Source: Bryobacterales bacterium | GTDB taxonomy: Bacteria > Acidobacteriota > Terriglobia > Bryobacterales > Bryobacteraceae | Direction: 5' to 3' | Length of the DNA stretch: 31,981 bases | Assembly (NCBI GenBank): GCA_003132905.1 | Contig: PKZC01000213.1 | Span: 1-31,981, forward strand | In this document: piece after piece, positions 364-29,434 of the stretch | Layout of the letters: every line of letters begins with the position of its first letter | How positions within the stretch are numbered: the first letter of the stretch is position 1 | Notes under the pieces: generated by a model | The model's database searches: none | Seen by the model: the letters and a program-made list of their open reading frames with translations, nothing else | What the model was told of the DNA's origin: nothing | Program-made: the position numbers and the translations under genes

Positions 364-1257
364 CTAATGCCGGTGTTCTTCTTCCCGCTCCCGGCCATTC
401 CGCCAAGCTTGGCGCTCGCGGTCCGTGCGTCCTTCCAATTCATGCCGTTCCGCCGGCCGAGGGCCGTTATAACGCGGCATGGCGTAGGGGTGAACATAAG
501 CGCCCCGATTCACCCACGAGCGATCCCAGCGCGCATCGTTGATAAACACCCGGTGCTCGCCCCACGCAAAGCGGTTCACGCCCCATCCCCAAGGCCGAAA
601 AGCGGGGCCGATCGCGATGCCGAAACGGAAACCGATGGCGCCGCCAACAAAGAAGCCGGGCCGCGGCGGGGCATAGACGATCAGCGGATCGTAATAAGGA
701 ACGACAATGAAGTTGGGATTGGCCGGCAGAATCTCAATATAAGGACCGCCATTGACGATGATCTGCGGATTTGTTCGCAGGTATCCGTAATCGTAAGCCC
801 TGTGCCGCTCGCGTTGCACGGCGTCCATCAGCTCCGGCTGCTGCGCGAGAAAGGCATTGCCCAGTTCGCTGGTCCAGCCCATGTCGGACGCCATCATATC
901 CAGCACGGAAGGAAATGGAAGCATGGCTTGCACGCTCGGATCCCACGGCAGATGGTCGTCGGAAATCGCTCGCGCCAGTGCGTCGCCCGTCAAGTAATGA
1001 TGCTGGTCCGCCCAGCGTGCAGCCTCGGGAACTTGGTCGGGAAACGTCGCCGCCGCCAAAATCTGGGACAACAATGGATCTGGATAGAGGGCGATTCTGG
1101 AAACCAGCCGGTCCAATTCCTGGGGCGGATAAGACGGCGGTGGTGGCGGCGGCGCTTGCCCAAAGAGAGGCGCAAAAGCTGCCAGGCCAAATGCCAGCGC
1201 GACGCCCATCGTCATTGCCCGCGGGGTTTTCTTCTGAATCCCCGGTTGGATTCGCAT
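364..1257 (-). CDS. DUF3300 family exported protein
   Basis: 297 residues. The N-terminus has a basic stretch, a hydrophobic segment (GVALAFGLAAFAPLFG) and then a run of prolines, consistent with a cleaved signal peptide and an envelope location. The DUF3300 core (about residues 45-200) is recognisable from LVSRIALYPDPLLSQILAA, the Trp/Pro motif LPWDPSVQAMLPFPSVL and VVPYYDPLIVYAP. The C-terminal third is rich in Gly, Trp and Arg and ends in a charged Arg/Glu/His tail. The start at 1257 is supported by AGGAGA a few bases upstream. The function of DUF3300 is unknown. Nothing links it to flagella except position; it is separated from the upstream transglycosylase gene by 113 bases with no obvious terminator. 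A plus-strand frame covering the same interval is a shadow. Confidence 0.85.
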   Translation of the reverse strand: MRIQPGIQKKTPRAMTMGVALAFGLAAFAPLFGQAPPPPPPSYPPQELDRLVSRIALYPDPLLSQILAAATFPDQVPEAARWADQHHYLTGDALARAISDDHLPWDPSVQAMLPFPSVLDMMASDMGWTSELGNAFLAQQPELMDAVQRERHRAYDYGYLRTNPQIIVNGGPYIEILPANPNFIVVPYYDPLIVYAPPRPGFFVGGAIGFRFGIAIGPAFRPWGWGVNRFAWGEHRVFINDARWDRSWVNRGAYVHPYAMPRYNGPRPAERHELEGRTDRERQAWRNGREREEEHRH

Positions 1258-2921: not shown

Positions 2922-3986
2922 TCATGAGACTGCTCTTGCGCCCATCAAGCGGTAAATGTAGGCCAGGATCTCGGCCACCGCGCGATAAAGATGGGGCGGG
3001 ACATGCTGTCCAACTTCGACGGATTTATACAATGCCTGTGCCAGAGGCGGATTTTCGATGAGCGGCACGTCGAACTCTAAAGCCCGCGCGCGAATGCGCA
3101 AGGCGAGATAATTCTTGCCCTTTGCTACAACCAGCGGCGCAGCCATGGTGTCATGGTGATAGCGAATCGCCACAGCGTAGTGCGTCGGGTTCACCACCAC
3201 GGCCGTGGCCGTTTTCACTTCGTCCATCATGCGGCGGCGGCGAACATCGCGCTGCAAACGGCGGATGCGCATTTTCGTCTGTGGATTTCCTTCGGATTCC
3301 TTCACTTCGTCGCGAATATCCTGCTTGCTCATGCGCATTTGCTTGGAGAACTTGCGCTTCTGACGGAAGAAATCGACGAAGCCGAATAACAAAAACAGCG
3401 CCGCGCCTTTCCATAGCAATTCCATGCACAGCGCGCGAAGCGTCTCAAGGCCCACTTGGAAGCTGCTCAGCGGAATCATGAGCAGACGTTCGCCGCTCTT
3501 GGTGACGATCCAGTAAATGGTGGCCCCAAACACTGCCACTAGCATCATGGCTTGAATGGACGATACGAGTCCCTTTTGCGGCAGCCCTTGCAGTTTCGAA
3601 ATGACGTCGAAATTCGAAGTCTTGGGCAGCAGCTTCGAAAGGCTGAAGGAAAAGCCCGTGGAACTAAGCTGGAACACCAGCGCGGTGAGAATCAGGATGC
3701 CGCTGGCATAGACCAGCGGAGTAAGCGATCGCGACAGCGCCTCGTGCAAAATCCCAATTAGCGTGGTTGGGCTCAGGTCGCCACGAAACGCCTCGATGAA
3801 CAGGCCCCTGGTTACTTCCTGCAGAGTTGCCAGCAGCGAAGGGCCGGTCTGCGCAATCAGCATGACGAAGACCGTGAATTGCAATCCGCTGACGAAATCG
3901 TGCGAGGCGGCGAATTGCCCCTCTTTGCGCGCTTTAATCAGCCGCCGCGGCGTTGCCTGTTCTGTCTTTTCGCCCGATGGATTCAT
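2922..3986 (-). CDS. flhB: Flagellar type III export protein FlhB
   Basis: 354 residues, the usual length. FlhB is the inner-membrane export-gate component whose autocleavage switches substrates from rod/hook to filament class. The N-terminus (GEKTEQATPRRLIKARKEGQ) is typical. Four hydrophobic segments lie within about residues 30-205. The cytoplasmic domain begins with a charged linker (KQDIRDEVKESEGNPQTK) and contains the self-cleavage motif NPTH at 266-269, followed by YAVAIRY. It follows fliR; the intervening bases are largely taken up by a 19-bp tandem duplication, leaving no clear ribosome binding site. Substrate switching also needs FliK, which begins this operon. Confidence 0.97.
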   Translation of the reverse strand: MNPSGEKTEQATPRRLIKARKEGQFAASHDFVSGLQFTVFVMLIAQTGPSLLATLQEVTRGLFIEAFRGDLSPTTLIGILHEALSRSLTPLVYASGILILTALVFQLSSTGFSFSLSKLLPKTSNFDVISKLQGLPQKGLVSSIQAMMLVAVFGATIYWIVTKSGERLLMIPLSSFQVGLETLRALCMELLWKGAALFLLFGFVDFFRQKRKFSKQMRMSKQDIRDEVKESEGNPQTKMRIRRLQRDVRRRRMMDEVKTATAVVVNPTHYAVAIRYHHDTMAAPLVVAKGKNYLALRIRARALEFDVPLIENPPLAQALYKSVEVGQHVPPHLYRAVAEILAYIYRLMGARAVS

Positions 3987-3990
3987 TGTG

Positions 3991-4028
3991 ACGTTACCAA
4001 ATCAAAGCCACGTTACCAAATCAAAGCC
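3991..4028. repeat. 19-bp tandem duplication on the fliR stop codon
   Basis: ACGTTACCAAATCAAAGCC occurs twice, perfectly and without a gap (3991-4009 and 4010-4028). On the minus strand the copy at 4010-4028 carries the last codon and TGA stop of fliR, while the second copy is non-coding and ends 4 bases before the flhB ATG. Removing one copy would leave fliR unchanged and bring flhB 19 bases nearer. Confidence 0.95.
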
Positions 4029-4794
4029 CCAACAATCGTCCCAACGCAGTGAAGACTTCCGCACCGAGCTGCTGATAGAGCTTGGGAATCAGCAAAACCA
4101 AGAAGCTCAACGCCGCCAGAGCCGCCAGCATTTTCGCCGGAAACGCCAGAGCGATGAGCTGCAGTTGAGAATTGAGGTGCCCCAACAGCCCGATCGACAA
4201 GTCAATCAAAAACAGCAGCGTCATCAAGGGCAGCGCCAGATGCAACCCGGTGGAAAAGATGCTGGAGCCCAGCATTAGCAGCGCTTCCACGCTGGCGCGC
4301 GACGCAATGAACGCGCCCGGAGGATGCGTTTCCAAACTTCGCGCCAGTATGGTCAACAGCACGCGATCGAATCCCATGGCGAAGAACAGTAATCCCGCGG
4401 TCAGCTGCGCCAGAAGAAGCAGCACGGTGGAATCTGCCTCAGTATTGGGATCGATGGTCGACGCGTAAGCAAATCCCGCCTGTGTACTGATGGCTTGCGC
4501 GGCGAACGTTACGGCCTCGATGAGAAACGCCACCGCCAGCCCCGTGGCCAATCCGATGGCAGCCTCGGCCACCATCCAACCCGCAACCTGCATCATGCTT
4601 CCCGGCATCGAATCGAGCGCCGGCCAGCGTGAGTACATTCCGAACGTCAGTATCATCGCCAGCGTGATCTTGGCCGCGCTGGGGCCCGCTTGCAGACCCG
4701 GCAGCGGCAGGAACACGAAGACCCCGGAAATACGGGCCAGCACAAGCAGAAACCCGTACAACACTGACGTCGGGATGGCCGGATTAGCATGCAT
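4021..4794 (-). CDS. fliR: Flagellar export gate protein FliR
   Basis: 257 residues. FliR joins FliP and FliQ in the helical export-gate complex of the flagellar type III apparatus in the inner membrane. The protein is strongly hydrophobic with about six membrane segments. It includes VLARISGVFVFLPLPG near the N-terminus, AQAISTQAGFAYASTIDP in the centre and LFLIDLSIGLLGHLNSQLQ later, all typical of the family. The frame is open upstream to 5028, but that stretch overlaps fliQ and is not membrane-like; the ATG at 4794, 5 bases beyond the fliQ stop, gives the expected N-terminus. Gene order fliO-P-Q-R-flhB is canonical. Confidence 0.96.
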   Translation of the reverse strand: MHANPAIPTSVLYGFLLVLARISGVFVFLPLPGLQAGPSAAKITLAMILTFGMYSRWPALDSMPGSMMQVAGWMVAEAAIGLATGLAVAFLIEAVTFAAQAISTQAGFAYASTIDPNTEADSTVLLLLAQLTAGLLFFAMGFDRVLLTILARSLETHPPGAFIASRASVEALLMLGSSIFSTGLHLALPLMTLLFLIDLSIGLLGHLNSQLQLIALAFPAKMLAALAALSFLVLLIPKLYQQLGAEVFTALGRLLGL

Positions 4795-7695: not shown

Positions 7696-8040
7696 CTACG
7701 AAGAAGAAGTCCCATTAGTTTGCGCCGGTGGCGTGGTTGAAGTGGTGGCGCCTGTCAGGGTTTGTACGCCCTGGTTGATTCCCATGAGTTGCTCTAACTC
7801 GCTGTACTGCACCAGCTGGCCGACGAATTGGATGCTGTCGGTGGGATTCAGCGGGTCCTGATTCTTAATTTGAGCTATCAGTAATTGCAGGAATGTTTGC
7901 TCGCTCGTCAACGAACCCACTCCATTTGACGAGCTCGAACTGGATGAGCTGGAGCCCGTTCCACTGGTGGCTTGTGTGGCTTGTGCCTTCGCCTGAGCTA
8001 GAAGCGACTGTGTTGCGGCAGAGGTGCCGAGTATCTGCAT
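7696..8040 (-). CDS. flgD: Hook-capping protein FlgD, short form
   Basis: 114 residues. The conserved FlgD N-terminal signature is clear: SEQTFLQLLIAQIKNQDPLN followed by PTDSIQFVGQLVQYSELEQL. A Ser-rich linker (about 28-37) precedes it. FlgD forms the cap under which hook subunits assemble. Typical FlgD is about 220 residues with Ig-like and tudor-like domains after this segment; here the protein ends in a Thr/Ser/Pro-rich tail soon after it. The ATG at 8040 has GGAGG upstream and shares a base with the fliK stop (TAATG). The frame open to 8103 overlaps fliK. Confidence 0.9.
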   Translation of the reverse strand: MQILGTSAATQSLLAQAKAQATQATSGTGSSSSSSSSSNGVGSLTSEQTFLQLLIAQIKNQDPLNPTDSIQFVGQLVQYSELEQLMGINQGVQTLTGATTSTTPPAQTNGTSSS

Positions 8041-10541
8041 TATCCGTTTCCTCCTGGATGGGCGTCGCCGCCCGAAGTCTGCTGGTCCAATTCCTGTTGC
8101 CACTTGCCGCCGCTGGCGCGACGGTCTCGCTGCGGCTGCCGATCGCCGCCAAAGGATTGCTGCTGGGAGCCGCGTTGTCCCCCCTCATGGGTGTCCTGCT
8201 GATTGCCGGATTGTGTGGCCACCGCAGCCGGCTTAGTTACATCCGCCTTCCACCCTTGATTCATCAAGTTCGCCGACAACTCGCCAAGATTGGAGCGTAG
8301 CGACTCTCGAAGAACGGGATCGGAAGCATGCACTGACACGTTCACCGATCCGGCGCGGTCGGCTACTCGAATCGCAGCCGAAGATTGATCGTTGCCCGTC
8401 AGATGTAACAGAATCTCAGAAGTCGCGGAAGTCTTGGGCAGTTCTGGAGCGAGTAAGTGGGTTTCCTGAGCGGCCAGGGGCAGGTTCGCATGGGCTGCTT
8501 CCGCGGGTTCTGGCGTACCCGGCATGGTACCGATTTCGGGAGCTTGCAAAACCGTCGCATCATTCCAGTGCGGAGTTACTCCGGCCGGTTGCTTGACACC
8601 CGCTAAGTCCGCCGGATTTTGAGCGCCGGCATCGGGCCTTTCTGCCGCGGGAGCGGAGGGCTGTGCATCACGTGGCGCATCACTGGACGTCTGGCTCTGA
8701 TCCGGCGCTGGCGGCTGCGAGTCCGAACTCTGCGGTTGCGTTACTGAACTCTGTGTAACTGGCGTCTCGCTCGTAGTAACTGCCGTCTTAGATGGTGTCA
8801 GAGTCGAGTGCTCAGGCGAACTTTCCGACCCGAGCATACGAACGGCGAACGCGAGGTTTTCGGCTTGCGGGAGAAGCGGGACCTTGGGCGCCTGAGTTAC
8901 AGGCAGACTCGCAAGCTGAGGCATCGGGGCCTTGCTGGGCGTTTCGGACGCTCGATCCATAACGTCGTGAGCAGCGGGCAGTGGCGTCGGAGGCGCCTTT
9001 TCCACAGAAGCAACCGGGAGTGGCGGGAGAGCTGAATCGACCGTGCTGGCGGCGCGCACGTCGACCTGGGAACGCGCTGGAGTTCTAGAATCGGCGTTCG
9101 CCGGCGGAGTACTGGAACCGTCTGCTTGCGGTGCAAGGGCCGGCGTCGCCGTCGGAACCAGAGATACCGTTGGATCAGGTAATGCCGCTGGCTCGTTTGC
9201 CGTAGAGGGTACCTGCGTAGGCTTCGAGACTTTCGTCGGGGCAATCAGCGCAGTCGGTGCGATGGGCGCGGTCGGGGCAATCGACGCGGTCGACGGGATC
9301 GGAGCAGTCGACGGGATCGGAGCAGTCGACCGGATGGATACAGGCGGATTGTCATTGTCGACCTGCGCGGGCTTTGGGGTTAGCAGACTTGTCGCTGCCT
9401 TTGGGGTTAGCAGACTTGTAGCTGGCTGCGCCGTGGGTTGCAGGGGTGCCCGAGGCGTTGTTAAGGGTTGGAATGCAAGCTCGCGCGTCTTAGAGGTTGT
9501 AACTTCGGCGCTGGCGCTGCGCTGCGTCGCGACGATTCGAGAAGCCCCAGTCGCAGTTGGCTTGCCCGTGACCACATTGATCGACGGCTGTACCGCCGGC
9601 ACGGATGTGCGAGTCGAAGAGATCACTGCCCGAGATGCTATCTTTGGCTGCACTGCTTGTCCCTGAATCACTTCGCCTTGGACTGCTTGTTGTTCGATTG
9701 GCTTAATCTCGACGGGTCCAAGCCCCACTGGCTTCGACGGCGCTGATATAGAATTCGCCACAGAATTCGCCGCTAATGGTTTCGCCGCCAAATACGGCGC
9801 GCCTGTTACCTGGCTGGTCGGCTGGCCCGGCTGCTGGAGCGATTTTGACGCGACACCCGATTGCACTGCGACGCCCGATTGCACTGCCACGCCCGATTGC
9901 ACTGCTACAGGAGATGCAGTCACTTGCACCTTGCCTGACGGAGGTAGTGTAGCCGGCGCGCCTGCGTTGGTCTCCGTCGCGCCGGATGCTGGGGCGGCCG
10001 AGGTGGCGCGGGGCACATTTGATCCCGCTTGATTTGGAAGTGAGAGGTTCGACAGTAACGCCGTTAGCACCGACGTTCCATCGCTCTGCTCCTTGGACGG
10101 CGTCGATTCTAGCGCTGGCGCTTCTTTCACAGTGTGTTCCGTCGCGGGTACTGCGTCCTGCGCCGATTGCGTGAGTATCAGGGCTGCTTGCGCCAAATTC
10201 GGAATCGGAATCGGTGGCGTCGTCGGAGACGGTAGAACTGAAGCCTCTTCGGTTCCAGTACCAGAGTCATCAGGCGATTGTTTGTTGGTTGCCGAACTTG
10301 AAGCCGGCGTGTTCGCTTGCGCCTTGCTCTCTTGCCGTGCGCCGGTCTCTTGCTCTACATCGTCGAAGAGCGTCAGGCTATCGAAGACGTTCTTGAATGG
10401 AATTGTTTTCTGCGCATTGGCGGCTGTTGAAACCAACAGGGGCGACTTTGAATTCAACAGCGCAGCTTTTGAATCAAGCGATTTCGTAAGAGCATGCGCC
10501 GGCAGAGGGAGAGCGGCATGCGCCGGTGCGGAAACAATCAC
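8040..10541 (-). CDS. fliK: Hook-length control protein FliK (very long, repeat-rich)
   Basis: 833 residues from the GTG at 10541, longer than typical FliK (roughly 400-650). Most of the chain is low-complexity Pro/Ala/Ser/Thr/Gln with internal tandem repeats and looks disordered, as expected of the exported molecular ruler. The C-terminal hook-length domain (about 700-780) is recognisable: EILLHLTGNDQSSAAIRVAD, then VNVSVHASDPVLRESLRSNL and GELSANLMNQGWKADV. A Gln/Gly/Arg-rich tail follows. FliK sets hook length and triggers the FlhB switch. There is no ATG near the 5' end and no ribosome binding site. The predicted sigma-54 transcript start is 1-2 bases before the GTG, so the message may be leaderless. 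The exact start is uncertain. Confidence 0.88.
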   Translation of the reverse strand: MIVSAPAHAALPLPAHALTKSLDSKAALLNSKSPLLVSTAANAQKTIPFKNVFDSLTLFDDVEQETGARQESKAQANTPASSSATNKQSPDDSGTGTEEASVLPSPTTPPIPIPNLAQAALILTQSAQDAVPATEHTVKEAPALESTPSKEQSDGTSVLTALLSNLSLPNQAGSNVPRATSAAPASGATETNAGAPATLPPSGKVQVTASPVAVQSGVAVQSGVAVQSGVASKSLQQPGQPTSQVTGAPYLAAKPLAANSVANSISAPSKPVGLGPVEIKPIEQQAVQGEVIQGQAVQPKIASRAVISSTRTSVPAVQPSINVVTGKPTATGASRIVATQRSASAEVTTSKTRELAFQPLTTPRAPLQPTAQPATSLLTPKAATSLLTPKPAQVDNDNPPVSIRSTAPIPSTAPIPSTASIAPTAPIAPTALIAPTKVSKPTQVPSTANEPAALPDPTVSLVPTATPALAPQADGSSTPPANADSRTPARSQVDVRAASTVDSALPPLPVASVEKAPPTPLPAAHDVMDRASETPSKAPMPQLASLPVTQAPKVPLLPQAENLAFAVRMLGSESSPEHSTLTPSKTAVTTSETPVTQSSVTQPQSSDSQPPAPDQSQTSSDAPRDAQPSAPAAERPDAGAQNPADLAGVKQPAGVTPHWNDATVLQAPEIGTMPGTPEPAEAAHANLPLAAQETHLLAPELPKTSATSEILLHLTGNDQSSAAIRVADRAGSVNVSVHASDPVLRESLRSNLGELSANLMNQGWKADVTKPAAVATQSGNQQDTHEGGQRGSQQQSFGGDRQPQRDRRASGGKWQQELDQQTSGGDAHPGGNG
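9291..9326. repeat. 18-bp tandem repeat inside fliK
   Basis: CGACGGGATCGGAGCAGT is repeated perfectly at 9291-9308 and 9309-9326, with more diverged copies extending back to about 9243. It encodes a 6-residue unit of the type PSTAPI. Confidence 0.9.
9373..9426. repeat. 27-bp tandem repeat inside fliK
   Basis: Two nearly identical 27-base units (9373-9399 and 9400-9426) encode the 9-residue repeat ATSLLTPK(A/P). The reading frame is preserved. Confidence 0.9.
9850..9903. repeat. Three 18-bp tandem repeats inside fliK
   Basis: Three consecutive 18-base units (9850-9867, 9868-9885, 9886-9903) differ at only a few bases. They encode the 6-residue unit VAVQSG/VASKS-like repeats, in frame. Confidence 0.9.
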
Positions 10542-12303: not shown

Positions 12304-13235
12304 CCGTATGGCTGCTCTTTTTCAACATGCTTACTCACTCCTCCGGACTCTGTGAAACGATTGCGAACGACCGCATTGTCGGCGAAGACCTGGCAAAAGC
12401 GTTGCCGGGTTTCGCGAATAAAATTCCACGCGACGCCGTGATCGGGTTTTCACCAGCCCCAGGCGCCCGCCGCATTTTCAAATCTCTGGAGTTGCAACGC
12501 ATCGGCGCTCCCTATGGAGTGGCCGTCGCACCGGACGCCGAAGCGTGTTTCGAGTGGAGCCTGCAGCAGTTGACCGATGACGTGGTCCGATCGTCCATTC
12601 GCCAATCGCTTCAAATGCCGGACGCGCGCGTCGATGTGCTCTCGGTGAGCAGAAGCATGGCGCCGGCCGGCAAAGTGGTTTTTCCAATTTCGGGGCTCTT
12701 GGCTTCCACACTTTCCGGGCCTGAAACGCCGGTCACATGGCGCGGCGAAGTGCTCTATCATGGCTCGCGGACCTTCTCCATCTGGGCGCGCGTCAAGATA
12801 TCGTCCACTATGACTCGCGTCGTTGCCACCGAGTTGATCCTGCCGGGCCAGACTGTCGGGCCGAAGCAAGTGCGGCTGGAGACCTACGACGATTTCCCCC
12901 TGCGTAACGACATCGCTCGCAATCTGGATGAGGTAATCGGACGCATGCCGCGACGCGCCATCCGCATGGGGTTGCCCGTCTTTCGCCTCGATCTGATTGA
13001 ACCATTCCAGGTGCAGCGCGGCGAATTAGTTGAGGTGACGGCCATCGCAGGCGCGGCTCAACTGCACATGCCCGCGCTGGCCGAGATGCAGGGCAGACAA
13101 GGCGACATGATCTCGCTCAAGAATCCTCGTACGGGAAAGATTTTTCGCGCCCGAATCGAAGGCAAAGACAAAGCTTTGGTGATGCCCTGGCCCGTCCCCG
13201 AACAGACCATGCCGGAACCGTTGAGGGTGCAATGA
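12300..13235 (+). CDS. flgA: P-ring assembly chaperone FlgA
   Basis: 311 residues. The C-terminal half carries the FlgA/SAF-type fold: ATELILPGQTVGPKQVRLET, IGRMPRRAIRMGLPVFRLDL and then FQVQRGELVEVTAIAGAAQL, with LKNPRTGKIFRARIEGKDKA near the end. This pattern is characteristic of FlgA, which helps FlgI form the P ring in the periplasm. The N-terminus (MTVWLLFFNMLTHSSGLCET) is a plausible but weak signal sequence. The N-terminal half is longer than in enterobacterial FlgA (about 220 residues). It overlaps flgG and flgH by 4 bases at each end, indicating a tightly coupled operon. Confidence 0.9.
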   Translation: MTVWLLFFNMLTHSSGLCETIANDRIVGEDLAKALPGFANKIPRDAVIGFSPAPGARRIFKSLELQRIGAPYGVAVAPDAEACFEWSLQQLTDDVVRSSIRQSLQMPDARVDVLSVSRSMAPAGKVVFPISGLLASTLSGPETPVTWRGEVLYHGSRTFSIWARVKISSTMTRVVATELILPGQTVGPKQVRLETYDDFPLRNDIARNLDEVIGRMPRRAIRMGLPVFRLDLIEPFQVQRGELVEVTAIAGAAQLHMPALAEMQGRQGDMISLKNPRTGKIFRARIEGKDKALVMPWPVPEQTMPEPLRVQ

Positions 13236-13939
13236 AGCTACGAATCTTGAGTCTCTTCTTGATGGGCGCTGTCCTTTGCACCGCCCAGTCGCCGAACAAA
13301 AAGAAAACTCAAACGCCCCCCGAGCCCTCGCCCCTCGACAAATACATCACCGACGCGTACAAAGATGGCTCTTCGCCACAAGCCGCCCATCCGCTCGGGT
13401 CCACTTGGTCGCAGAATGCCCTTTTCTCTAATCTGGGGATGGATCTCAGAGCCAATCGCGTGAACGACTTAGTAAATATAGTTGTAACTGAAACATTTTC
13501 GGCCGTCGCTAACGGCGATGTAAAGACCCAGCGGCAAGCCACCGCCCAAAGCAACATCGCTCAGCTCGCCGGTGTCACGAAAACTACCGGACCTTTAGCC
13601 AATCTCCTCGGCACCAATACTCAAACTCAACTGCAGGGAACCGGCGAGACCAGCCGGGGCGCAGTCCTCACGGCGAATCTGAGCGCTCGCGTCACCCACA
13701 TCTTGCCCAACGGTTACCTGGTCATCGAAGGAACCAAACGCGTGCAAGTAAGCTCCGAAAATCAAGTGGTCACGGTGCGAGGCGTGATCCGGCCGGTGGA
13801 TCTGGCTCCTAACAACAGCATCTCCTCCAACCTGATCGCGCAGATGGAAATCCAGGTGAACGGCAAGGGCGTCATCAACGATACCATTCATCGCCCCAAT
13901 ATTTTGTACCGTATTTTGCTCGGCATCTTGCCGTTCTAG
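13232..13939 (+). CDS. flgH: Flagellar L-ring protein FlgH
   Basis: 235 residues. FlgH signatures include LGSTWSQNALFSNLGMDLRA, then VNDLVNIVVTETFSAVANGD, LSARVTHILPNGYLVIEGTK, the strand VQVSSENQVVTVRGVIRPVD and the C-terminal RPNILYRILLGILPF. FlgH forms the outer-membrane L ring and is normally a lipoprotein. Here the signal peptide reads LFLMGAVLCTAQ: a Cys is present at residue 16, but Leu at -1 does not fit the lipobox (Gly, Ala or Ser expected), so lipidation is doubtful. The last residues and stop codon lie in the first unit of a 19-bp triple tandem repeat. Confidence 0.96.
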   Translation: MKLRILSLFLMGAVLCTAQSPNKKKTQTPPEPSPLDKYITDAYKDGSSPQAAHPLGSTWSQNALFSNLGMDLRANRVNDLVNIVVTETFSAVANGDVKTQRQATAQSNIAQLAGVTKTTGPLANLLGTNTQTQLQGTGETSRGAVLTANLSARVTHILPNGYLVIEGTKRVQVSSENQVVTVRGVIRPVDLAPNNSISSNLIAQMEIQVNGKGVINDTIHRPNILYRILLGILPF

Positions 13940-13987
13940 ACTCTCAAGACCGTTTTAGACTCTCAAGACCGTTCTAGCCTCTCAAAA
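13931..13987. repeat. 19-bp repeat in three tandem copies on the flgH stop codon
   Basis: CCGTTCTAGACTCTCAAGA (13931-13949), CCGTTTTAGACTCTCAAGA (13950-13968) and CCGTTCTAGCCTCTCAAAA (13969-13987) abut with no gaps. The first copy encodes the last two flgH residues and its TAG stop; the others fill the gap to the flgI ATG at 13991. No ribosome binding site is evident for flgI, so the repeats occupy its translation-initiation region. Confidence 0.97.
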
Positions 13988-13990
13988 ATC

Positions 13991-15100
13991 ATGCGACTCT
14001 CATTGACCGTTCTCACCGCTGCGACGCTTCTCCAACTTCCGGCCGCCGCCGATCCTCCCGCCGCGCGGCTGAAGGAGTTGGTCTCGCTCGAAGGCGTCCG
14101 CGAGAATCAGTTAATTGGCTATGGCATCGTGGTGGGACTCAAAGCCACTGGTGACCGGCAACAGACGCTGTTCACCGCGCAGAGCCTTGCCAACATGCTC
14201 CAGGAGATGGGTGTCACGGTGAATCCAAGCCTGATCTTGGTGAAAAATACGGCGGCCGTCATGGTCACTGCCACGCTGCCGGCCTTCGCTCAATCGGGCA
14301 TGCGGATCGATGCCACCGTGGCGGCCATGGGCGACTCCGCTAGTTTGCAAGGCGGACTGCTGTTGATGACCAGCCTGCGCGGAATCGACGGTCAAGTTTA
14401 TTCTATTGCTCAAGGCCCGGTAGTAACTGGCGGTTTCATCGCAGGCGGCGCGGGCAACACGCAAACGGTAAACCATCCTACCGTAGGCCGCATCCCGAGC
14501 GGCGCCATCGTCGAGCGTACATCGCCTGCCGTTGAACCGACTAAGGAGGTGCGCCTCCAACTCCATGATGCCGATTTCACCACCGCCGCGCGCATCGCGG
14601 AAGTGGTCAATCACCACTTCACGGCCGATACTCCTGGCATCGCGCACGCCGACAATTCCGGACTAGTGAGCGTTTTAATTCCAGCAAGCTTTTCGACACG
14701 CACCACCGAGTTTATCGCCGAACTCGAAGCGCTAACGGTGCAGACCGACCGGCCCTCGAAAGTCGTCATCAACGAACGAACCGGAACGATCGTGATGGGC
14801 AAAGAAGTTCGCGTTTCGCCGGTGGCCATCATGCATGGCGATTTGACCGTCGAAATTCAGACCACTTACGATGTTTCCCAGCCCGGTCCGTTCTCCAACG
14901 GAACCACCCAGGTTACTCCCCAGGTTTCGGTTGGCGTCAAAGAAGAGAAGGCGCGCAACGTGGTGCTCAAGGAAGGCGCCACCGTGGAAGAGTTAGTGCG
15001 CGCGCTCAATTCGATCGGTTCCACGCCGCGCGACATCATCGCCATTCTGCAAAGCCTGCGCGCCGCCGGAGCTCTGGAATCGGAGATCGAAGTCATTTAG
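13991..15100 (+). CDS. flgI: Flagellar P-ring protein FlgI
   Basis: 369 residues, family length. A signal peptide (residues 1-20, ending AAA) targets it to the periplasm. FlgI motifs: RLKELVSLEGVRENQLIGYG then IVVGLKATGD; VNPSLILVKNTAAVMVTATL; AQSGMRIDATVAAMGDSASL; GGLLLMTSLRGIDGQVYSIA; and KVVINERTGTIVMGKEVRVS. The C-terminus has GATVEELVRALNSIGSTPRD. It forms the bushing around the rod in the peptidoglycan layer, assisted by FlgA. Confidence 0.98.
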   Translation: MRLSLTVLTAATLLQLPAAADPPAARLKELVSLEGVRENQLIGYGIVVGLKATGDRQQTLFTAQSLANMLQEMGVTVNPSLILVKNTAAVMVTATLPAFAQSGMRIDATVAAMGDSASLQGGLLLMTSLRGIDGQVYSIAQGPVVTGGFIAGGAGNTQTVNHPTVGRIPSGAIVERTSPAVEPTKEVRLQLHDADFTTAARIAEVVNHHFTADTPGIAHADNSGLVSVLIPASFSTRTTEFIAELEALTVQTDRPSKVVINERTGTIVMGKEVRVSPVAIMHGDLTVEIQTTYDVSQPGPFSNGTTQVTPQVSVGVKEEKARNVVLKEGATVEELVRALNSIGSTPRDIIAILQSLRAAGALESEIEVI

Positions 15101-28278: not shown

Positions 28279-28551
28279 ATGGCACAGTCCACGCAGCTCT
28301 CCCGGGAAGGCGTCGCGCAAGTGGCGGGTAGAATCCTCATAGCTTGGCACAGCGGCGAGACCGCCGGTCTTAGCCGCGAGTTGGAATACGCTCGCTGCCT
28401 GGCTGCCCAGGCGCCTCACTCCAGTACCCTCGAGATGGAAACAATGGAAGTGCTTTCGGGCGCGGTAGAATCTCTCAGGCGTAGCTGCGGCCAGCACGCC
28501 GGAGCGGTTCGCCTGCTGGAACACTTGGCAAAAACGCCTGCTTGTAGTTAG
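28279..28551 (+). CDS. Small uncharacterised protein next to fliM
   Basis: 90 residues, predicted all-helical, beginning MAQSTQLSREGVAQVAGRIL and containing ETAGLSRELEYARCLAAQAP and EVLSGAVESLRRSCGQHAGA. No family recognised, no signal peptide. Helical character and position within the flagellar cluster are compatible with a chaperone-like or regulatory protein, but nothing demonstrates this. No ribosome binding site precedes the ATG. Its TAG stop ends the first unit of a 17-bp tandem repeat. It converges on fliM with 13 bases between stop codons. Confidence 0.6.
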   Translation: MAQSTQLSREGVAQVAGRILIAWHSGETAGLSRELEYARCLAAQAPHSSTLEMETMEVLSGAVESLRRSCGQHAGAVRLLEHLAKTPACS

Positions 28552-28568
28552 CGCCTGCTTGTAGTTAG
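28535..28568. repeat. 17-bp tandem duplication at the convergent ORF/fliM ends
   Basis: CGCCTGCTTGTAGTTAG occurs twice perfectly (28535-28551, 28552-28568). The first copy ends in the TAG stop of the 90-residue ORF; the second holds the fliM stop codon (TAA on the minus strand, 28565-28567). Confidence 0.96.
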
Positions 28569-29434
28569 CGGATGAAATCTTCTACCTGGAATGCCCGCCG
28601 CTGGCCCGTGCTTACGATCTGCCCGCTGAAGCTGGAAGCGCCATTCAACGTGCAAATAGCCCTGCGCTCCACCGGATGGTCCAATCGCACGATCTGCCCC
28701 TCGGTAAGCCGTAACAGATCGCCTAGGCGCATTTCAGATCCGTCCAGCCATACCTGCACTCCCACCTGGCTGCCCAGCAGCACTTCCAAAGTAGCCTCAA
28801 CCGATACGGTGGTTTCCGGCGTCTCTACCGGCGCGGGTTCTTCCGCCGTCATGACGGTGGTGAACAATTCGGGCGGAGCAAGCAAGGTGAGTTGCCCCAC
28901 TTGGTCGCCGACAGCCAAATCGAAATGGGCCGCGAATACAGGCTCCGTCGGCGGTAGCATCCTCGAGGGAACAGGCTCAAACTCCAGTGTTACCGTCTCG
29001 AGCGGCGTCTCCATCAGCGTTGCCCAGGCACGATACGCATCGGAGAGGATCATGCGGTACAACAGCCGGACCACTTGTAATTCGATCTCTGTAGGCTTGC
29101 GGTCCACTGCGCCGAAGGAACCCGCTTTGGCACCCAGCGCCACGCCTACCAAGGGCAGCAGCACTGGGTATTCCACCACAAGAATCAGTTTGCGGTCGTC
29201 CGGACGCACCAGCGCCAGCCCAAAACAGGCCCGCTTGTCGGCTACCGGGAACTCGCCAAACGAGATCTCTCCGCCGCTGGTATGGGTTGCAGTCACCGAC
29301 GTCCGCAGAAAAGCCGAAAGGCTGATTGTGAGCTCCCGGGCCAGCGTCTCGTTCGCCATGCGCACCAGTTCGCCGGGGACACCCTGCAGCTTGTTGTTGA
29401 CCCGAAATTCGGCCTTGGTCCAGTTGGATTCCAT
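28565..29434 (-). CDS. fliM: Flagellar motor switch protein FliM (lacks CheY-binding N-terminus)
   Basis: 289 residues from the ATG at 29434; a TTG at 29485 would add 17 residues of unlikely composition. The middle CheC-like domain is visible in MANETLARELTISLSAFLRT, VTATHTSGGEISFGEFPVAD, LILVVEYPVLLPLVGVALGA and ELQVVRLLYRMILSDAYRAW. The C-terminal SpoA domain follows: VSVEATLEVLLGSQVGVQVW, MRLGDLLRLTEGQIVRLDHP and GQIVSTGQRRAFQVEDFI. FliM links FliG to FliN in the C-ring. The usual N-terminal CheY-P binding peptide (LSQAEIDALL-like) is missing: the protein starts close to the middle domain. It stands alone, divergent from flbD-motAB. Confidence 0.93.
   Translation of the reverse strand: MESNWTKAEFRVNNKLQGVPGELVRMANETLARELTISLSAFLRTSVTATHTSGGEISFGEFPVADKRACFGLALVRPDDRKLILVVEYPVLLPLVGVALGAKAGSFGAVDRKPTEIELQVVRLLYRMILSDAYRAWATLMETPLETVTLEFEPVPSRMLPPTEPVFAAHFDLAVGDQVGQLTLLAPPELFTTVMTAEEPAPVETPETTVSVEATLEVLLGSQVGVQVWLDGSEMRLGDLLRLTEGQIVRLDHPVERRAICTLNGASSFSGQIVSTGQRRAFQVEDFIR

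Follow-up and report, generated by a model that had tools for sequence, protein, structure and literature searches.

Tandem repeats between genes are known from mycobacteria, senX3-regX3 being one such case. The mycobacterial MIRU/ETR elements are tandem units located at gene junctions, where they may affect expression of the next gene, and related MIRU units occur at many loci (PMC2734929). In marine Beggiatoaceae, one common 7-bp sequence, TAACTGA, forms 169 sets of direct repeats that close all three reading frames, and the same article cites a multiple-of-three rule for short tandem repeats in coding DNA (PMC4679880). Repeats of 20-21 nt with constant size and variable sequence, whose abundance varies by species, were described by Subirana and Messeguer in a survey that required at least four repeats (PMC8161180). 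Among the titles and abstract openings of the literature matches listed, none reported that short tandem duplications concentrate at stop codons.

Three tandem duplications cover stop codons in a flagellar cluster

The window, meaning the whole stretch of 31,981 nucleotides analysed here, holds flagellar genes, arranged in a cluster, of a soil bacterium of the Bryobacterales (Acidobacteriota). The FlgI encoded there shares 82% and 80% identity with those of two Bryobacterales metagenome-assembled genomes (MAGs; L001 and L013), and the genes at the named junctions gave Pfam matches to FlhB, FliR, FlgH, FlgI and FliM. The comparison DNA consisted of relatives' loci, with no strain of the window's own species among the matches. 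Seven tandem arrays (period 14-40, 90% identity) were found in the window, against 0.005 expected from 200 order-3 Markov simulations. Three of them cover stop codons, and the other four lie in frame within genes. The period is a multiple of three in all four in-gene arrays and in none of the three stop-covering ones, and the first copy holds the complete stop codon at all three gene ends. The three duplications at gene ends are thus confirmed as real and in excess of chance. The first-pass annotation had described them as perfect, gapless duplications of 17-19 bp on stop codons; all three are present, although one is imperfect and one lies between convergent genes. It had also taken their units to be unrelated, and a comparison of the three sequences found nothing common, which excludes a mobile or dispersed repeat family of the MIRU or TAACTGA type.

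Whether coverage of stops in 3/3 cases is itself unusual depends on the null. If harmless placements anywhere in the window are allowed, P is 0.011; if placements are confined to the same junctions, 1.91 of three arrays are expected on stops and P is 0.20, both values being post hoc because the finding was picked for sitting on stops. Conditioned on the junctions, the coverage is not significant.

Smaller and in-gene repeats were also recorded. An 8-bp pair at 338-353, formerly listed as a further case, does not include the DUF3300 stop (364-366, minus strand) and is at chance level, perfect 8-bp pairs numbering two in the window against 0.56 expected. A perfect 8-bp pair (GTTACTAA) at 1336-1353, intergenic between DUF3300 and a transglycosylase gene, is also at chance level. 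In-frame arrays with periods of 18 and 27 occupy 9244-9428 and 9850-9909 of a fliK-like gene (8040-10541), which has no Pfam match and is named from its place; in-frame arrays also occur at roughly this part of the cluster in some related loci (L004, L008, L015 and L042).

The duplicated junctions compared with those of relatives

The flgH/flgI array (13931-13987, plus strand) comprises three 19-bp copies that cover the stop codon (13937-13939) of flgH (13232-13939, plus strand) and precede flgI (13991-15100, plus strand; start 13991). It is imperfect, contrary to its original description, with one mismatch between copies 1 and 2, two between copies 1 and 3 and three between copies 2 and 3. 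The gap between the two genes is 51 bp and would be 13 bp with one unit (51 = 13 + 2 x 19). Of 42 relatives' loci read, 34 have a corresponding gap of -4 to 17 bp, one has 25 bp and seven have 50-252 bp, some of these last values probably stemming from mis-called starts; in the two closest relatives it is 3 and 2 bp. The beginning of the first unit belongs to the LPF-plus-stop ending of FlgH that is common to many relatives. Each of the array's three TAGs closes a different frame. With the gap now at 51 bp, readthrough of the flgH TAG would continue, open and in frame, into the flgI ATG (13937-13993).

At the fliR/flhB junction, a perfect duplication of 2 x 19 bp (3991-4028, minus strand) covers the stop codon (4021-4023) of fliR (4021-4794 by the called start, longest ORF to 5028; minus strand) upstream of flhB (2922-3986, minus strand; start 3986). 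The match run equals the period, with no extra microhomology. One unit would leave 15 bp of the present 34-bp gap (34 = 15 + 19). This gap is 35 bp in L001, 18 bp in L013 and -11 to 34 bp in 27 other relatives; since the window's value falls inside that range, the gap alone is no proof of change. Arrays at the flgH/flgI or fliR/flhB junctions were absent from the relatives' loci scanned.

The third array, a perfect duplication of 2 x 17 bp (28535-28568) whose match runs on for 2 bp to 28570, lies between ORF90 (28279-28551, plus strand), a 90-residue open reading frame, and fliM (28565-29434 by the caller, with an uncertain start that moves to 29485 for the longest ORF; minus strand). The earlier description of fliM as the gene downstream of this ORF does not hold, as the two genes converge on opposite strands. 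The 17-bp unit holds both stops, at 28549-28551 for ORF90 and 28565-28567 for fliM, so no downstream start is available for coupling. With one unit only, the pair would overlap tail to tail by 4 nt. Such overlaps exist in the three relatives examined, measuring 115 nt in L102, 115 nt in L107 and 11 nt in L109; in L102 and L107 the ORF90 homology (40% identity) stops short of an extra C-terminal tail, and the L109 homologue was not reported by tblastn and was identified from its place and an LLEHLA motif. The 17-bp duplication therefore probably separated an overlapping pair. ORF90 looks like a real gene of an uncharacterised family of small proteins: 128 homologous proteins were found at E <= 0.001 from 233 candidates, some of them with Bryobacteraceae names, and the three nearest of ten fetched share its C-terminus (KTPACS or KAPACS). 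No Pfam family was found for it.

Judged from these sequence comparisons, the duplications are derived, given the lack of arrays at flgH/flgI and fliR/flhB in the relatives' loci, the flgH/flgI gap relative to theirs and the ORF90/fliM overlap in three relatives. Similar C-termini in relatives, seen for flgH and for the three nearest ORF90 homologues, suggest that the ends of these proteins were left as they were. The proposal that duplication is neutral for the upstream protein is accordingly borne out, with the stop retained in the first copy and the FlgH C-terminus matching that of relatives.

Survey of short tandem arrays in other loci

Arrays were then counted in 120 other Bryobacterales and Acidobacteria loci (2,152,965 bases), in 61 pieces (567,986 bases) of G102, a related 4.6-Mb MAG (L159-L178, L199-L238 and L015), and in 36 outgroup loci (646,038 bases), omitting L001 and L013, which L099-L107 repeat, and L051. 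Genes were called with a home-made hexamer caller and no curated annotation. Seven multiple-of-three arrays outside the window that lay wholly in uncalled ORFs of at least 200 codons were set aside from the non-coding count. Two of these, both from G102, lay over the starts of called genes (L015 6663 and L233 8499). One G102 array on a stop at a contig end (L225) was dropped, and sorting reduced the non-coding arrays of G102 from 20 to 17.

Outside the window, the period of in-gene arrays (period 14-40) was a multiple of three in 27/28 cases, L196 being the sole exception; the seven arrays set aside are excluded from this count as well, since the sorting rule uses the period. Among stop-covering arrays the proportion was chance-like, at 4/12. 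The first copy held the complete stop in nine of these 12; the exceptions were L052, where the stop begins 2 bases ahead of the array, L015, where it straddles copies 1 and 2, and L208, where it lies in copy 2.

With all harmless placements taken as equally likely, 12/32 non-coding arrays (period 14-40) covered stops against 3.7 expected (P 1.4e-4), distributed as 1/7 in the other Bryobacterales and Acidobacteria, 7/17 in G102 and 4/8 in the outgroups. Starts were covered by four of the 32 against 3.8 expected, and three arrays began just downstream of a stop against 2.9 expected, the comparison of stops with just-downstream positions giving P 0.053. Perfect arrays of period 11-13 covered stops in 3/7 cases against 0.58 expected (P 0.016), and arrays of period 41-120 in 0/2. 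Allowing harmless placements at any position exaggerates the excess, since long stretches called 'intergenic' contain genes that the caller overlooked; in one round these included the fliK-like gene of the window itself. A second null was therefore confined to each junction. Under it, stops were covered by 15/39 arrays against 9.16 expected (P 0.0027) and starts by five against 6.3; without two low-complexity arrays (L079 and L208), the stop count was 13/37 against 9.02 (P 0.029). The three closest genomes, sampled over 371 kb that partly repeat L001 and L013, yielded no stop-covering array of period 12-40; further stretches of one of these genomes contained a perfect 13-bp pair on a stop (L150). 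At a flagellar junction of L042 (2244-2283), a duplicated 20-bp unit with two mismatches spans one gene's stop together with the start that follows; the protein encoded upstream has a C-terminus that appears FliP-like.

Array rates appear to differ between genomes. Non-gene arrays per Mb numbered 94 in the window (three arrays), 30 in G102, 12 in the outgroups and 3.3 in the other Bryobacterales, so that the window is about 28 times as dense as the last of these, with three arrays in 32 kb against seven in 2.15 Mb of other Bryobacterales and Acidobacteria loci. The probability of at least three arrays in window-sized DNA is 1.7e-4 at the rate of the other Bryobacterales and 0.07 at that of G102, for a window that was itself chosen for its arrays. 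Non-coding short arrays are about 9 times commoner in G102 than in the other Bryobacterales loci sampled, and this genome was chosen for its apparent richness in arrays, from L015 first and then from further stretches. Because it was picked for many arrays, part of the stop excess comes from selection: of the arrays known before the choice, 4/6 were on stops, and of those from stretches fetched later, 3/11, one of them low-complexity, where the mean rate of the set predicts about 1.1. The stop excess is weaker in this choice-free part of G102. The enrichment at stops that had been anticipated is thus present beyond the window, at a modest level and partly owing to the choice of loci. Ku (PF02735) was present in 5/6 genomes searched and was not found in the array-rich G102, a MAG that may be incomplete. 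As G102 is the genome without Ku, Ku end joining is not supported as the driver of array-rich genomes.

Discussion

Our preferred explanation, which we hold to be probable, is that short tandem duplications arise at random, independently and in a lineage-specific manner, and that purifying selection acts as the filter. An ordinary mutational process, such as slippage or fill-in end joining, would duplicate single-copy sequence blindly with respect to frame, and the products would persist only where no protein is broken; each duplication here was probably an ordinary copying or repair error kept where it was harmless. Inside genes, the survivors should be units of multiple-of-three length. At gene ends, a unit of any length could be tolerated provided that it spans or reaches the junction: the upstream gene's stop remains in the first copy, and the last copy retains the 5' end of the neighbour or, for a convergent pair, the other gene's stop. 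A junction with gap g and unit p offers about g + p + 1 harmless positions, about p of which include the stop, and in overlapping genes every harmless placement includes it. Since many or all harmless placements at tight or overlapping pairs fall on the stop, this arithmetic explains most of the pattern, with abutting or overlapping genes being pulled apart as the outcome. The high rate of arrays in the window needs a cause of its own. Other findings also count against a neutral filter alone: placement leaves the stop excess outside the window (15/39 against 9.16), no matching excess is seen at starts, where two start-covering arrays had been removed by the sorting rule, and the in-gene array L196 departs from the multiple-of-three rule.

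That residue could mean that, in addition to neutral filtering, short duplications form somewhat more readily at stop codons, or at gene ends in general, which would make these sites a mild hotspot of mutation. Possible sources include transcription-replication conflict and events that accompany the termination of translation. The counts at stops under both nulls and at periods 11-13 are consistent with this idea, as is the match between observed and expected numbers at starts and just downstream of stops, but the numbers are small and the gene calls home-made, removal of two low-complexity arrays brings P to 0.03, stops differ from just-downstream positions only at P 0.053, and no array of period 41-120 lies on a stop. 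Moreover, 7/12 stop arrays come from a genome picked for array richness, and in the other Bryobacterales 1/7 arrays lie on stops. We regard a hotspot as unlikely. The proposition also seems unlikely to us in its general form, in which duplications across bacteria would exceed the stop hits predicted from harmless placement by a factor of about 1.5 to 3, with no preferred frame and with the termination site, or something tied to it, as the hotspot. An origin by frameshift, in which an array inside a gene gives rise to a stop in one of its later copies, is unlikely for most arrays, the stop being in copy 1 in 9/12 surveyed arrays and 3/3 in the window. A role as in-frame back-up stops is not supported, the periods being random with respect to frame.

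The first-pass annotation had further suggested that the duplications tune translational coupling. Two of the three arrays do separate flagellar genes that run in the same direction and are almost adjacent in many relatives, and in mycobacteria longer tandem repeats upstream of fpg accompany higher expression (PMC2734929). In native gene pairs (PMC10666635), reinitiation falls by 40-80% at 14 nt and is almost gone at 38 nt in E. coli, and in Haloferax it is absent or close to zero at 22-23 nt; reporter studies cited there describe coupling across 73 nt and across 150-850 nt. By comparison, the single-unit gaps of 13 and 15 nt would already be marginal, and the present gaps of 51 and 34 nt would be near or beyond reach, so that uncoupling would be a likelier effect of the duplications than tuning. 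By eye, neither flgI nor flhB is preceded by an evident Shine-Dalgarno-like word. With the third array between convergent genes, no preference of frame and no scanned locus of a relative bearing an array at the corresponding junctions, the tuning claim is not sustained, and selection for altered coupling or for a changed initiation region of the next gene seems very unlikely to us. To assembly or sequencing artefacts we give hardly any credence: arrays of 34-57 bp are generally short beside usual reads, substitutions distinguish the copies of the flgH array, and intact reading frames flank the arrays on both sides.

The arrays are real and mostly ordinary, the small stop excess outside the window being the one thread worth pulling. 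If ordinary, they provide a worked example of how gene layout sieves random small duplications and show overlapping or abutting genes separating with both proteins intact, presumably without functional effect. If the stop excess held up in a large annotated set, small duplications would be connected with the termination of translation, which would point to a way in which gene overlaps are lost and overlapping genes spread apart over evolutionary time.

Compared with known systems, the arrays resemble ordinary bacterial short tandem repeats in being gapless and head-to-tail, with unrelated units, in frame within genes and of any length outside them, and differ in having mostly two copies. Like the mycobacterial MIRU/ETR elements, they are tandem units at gene junctions with a possible effect on the next gene, but MIRUs are longer and their units are related across loci (PMC2734929), whereas the units here are unrelated. 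The Beggiatoaceae repeats share a single 7-bp sequence (PMC4679880), whereas three unrelated units of 17-19 bp occur here. Unit size is similar in the 20-21 nt repeats, which also have variable sequence and an abundance that varies by species (PMC8161180); the arrays described here have two or three copies rather than four or more, and periods in the loci surveyed spread over 11-40.
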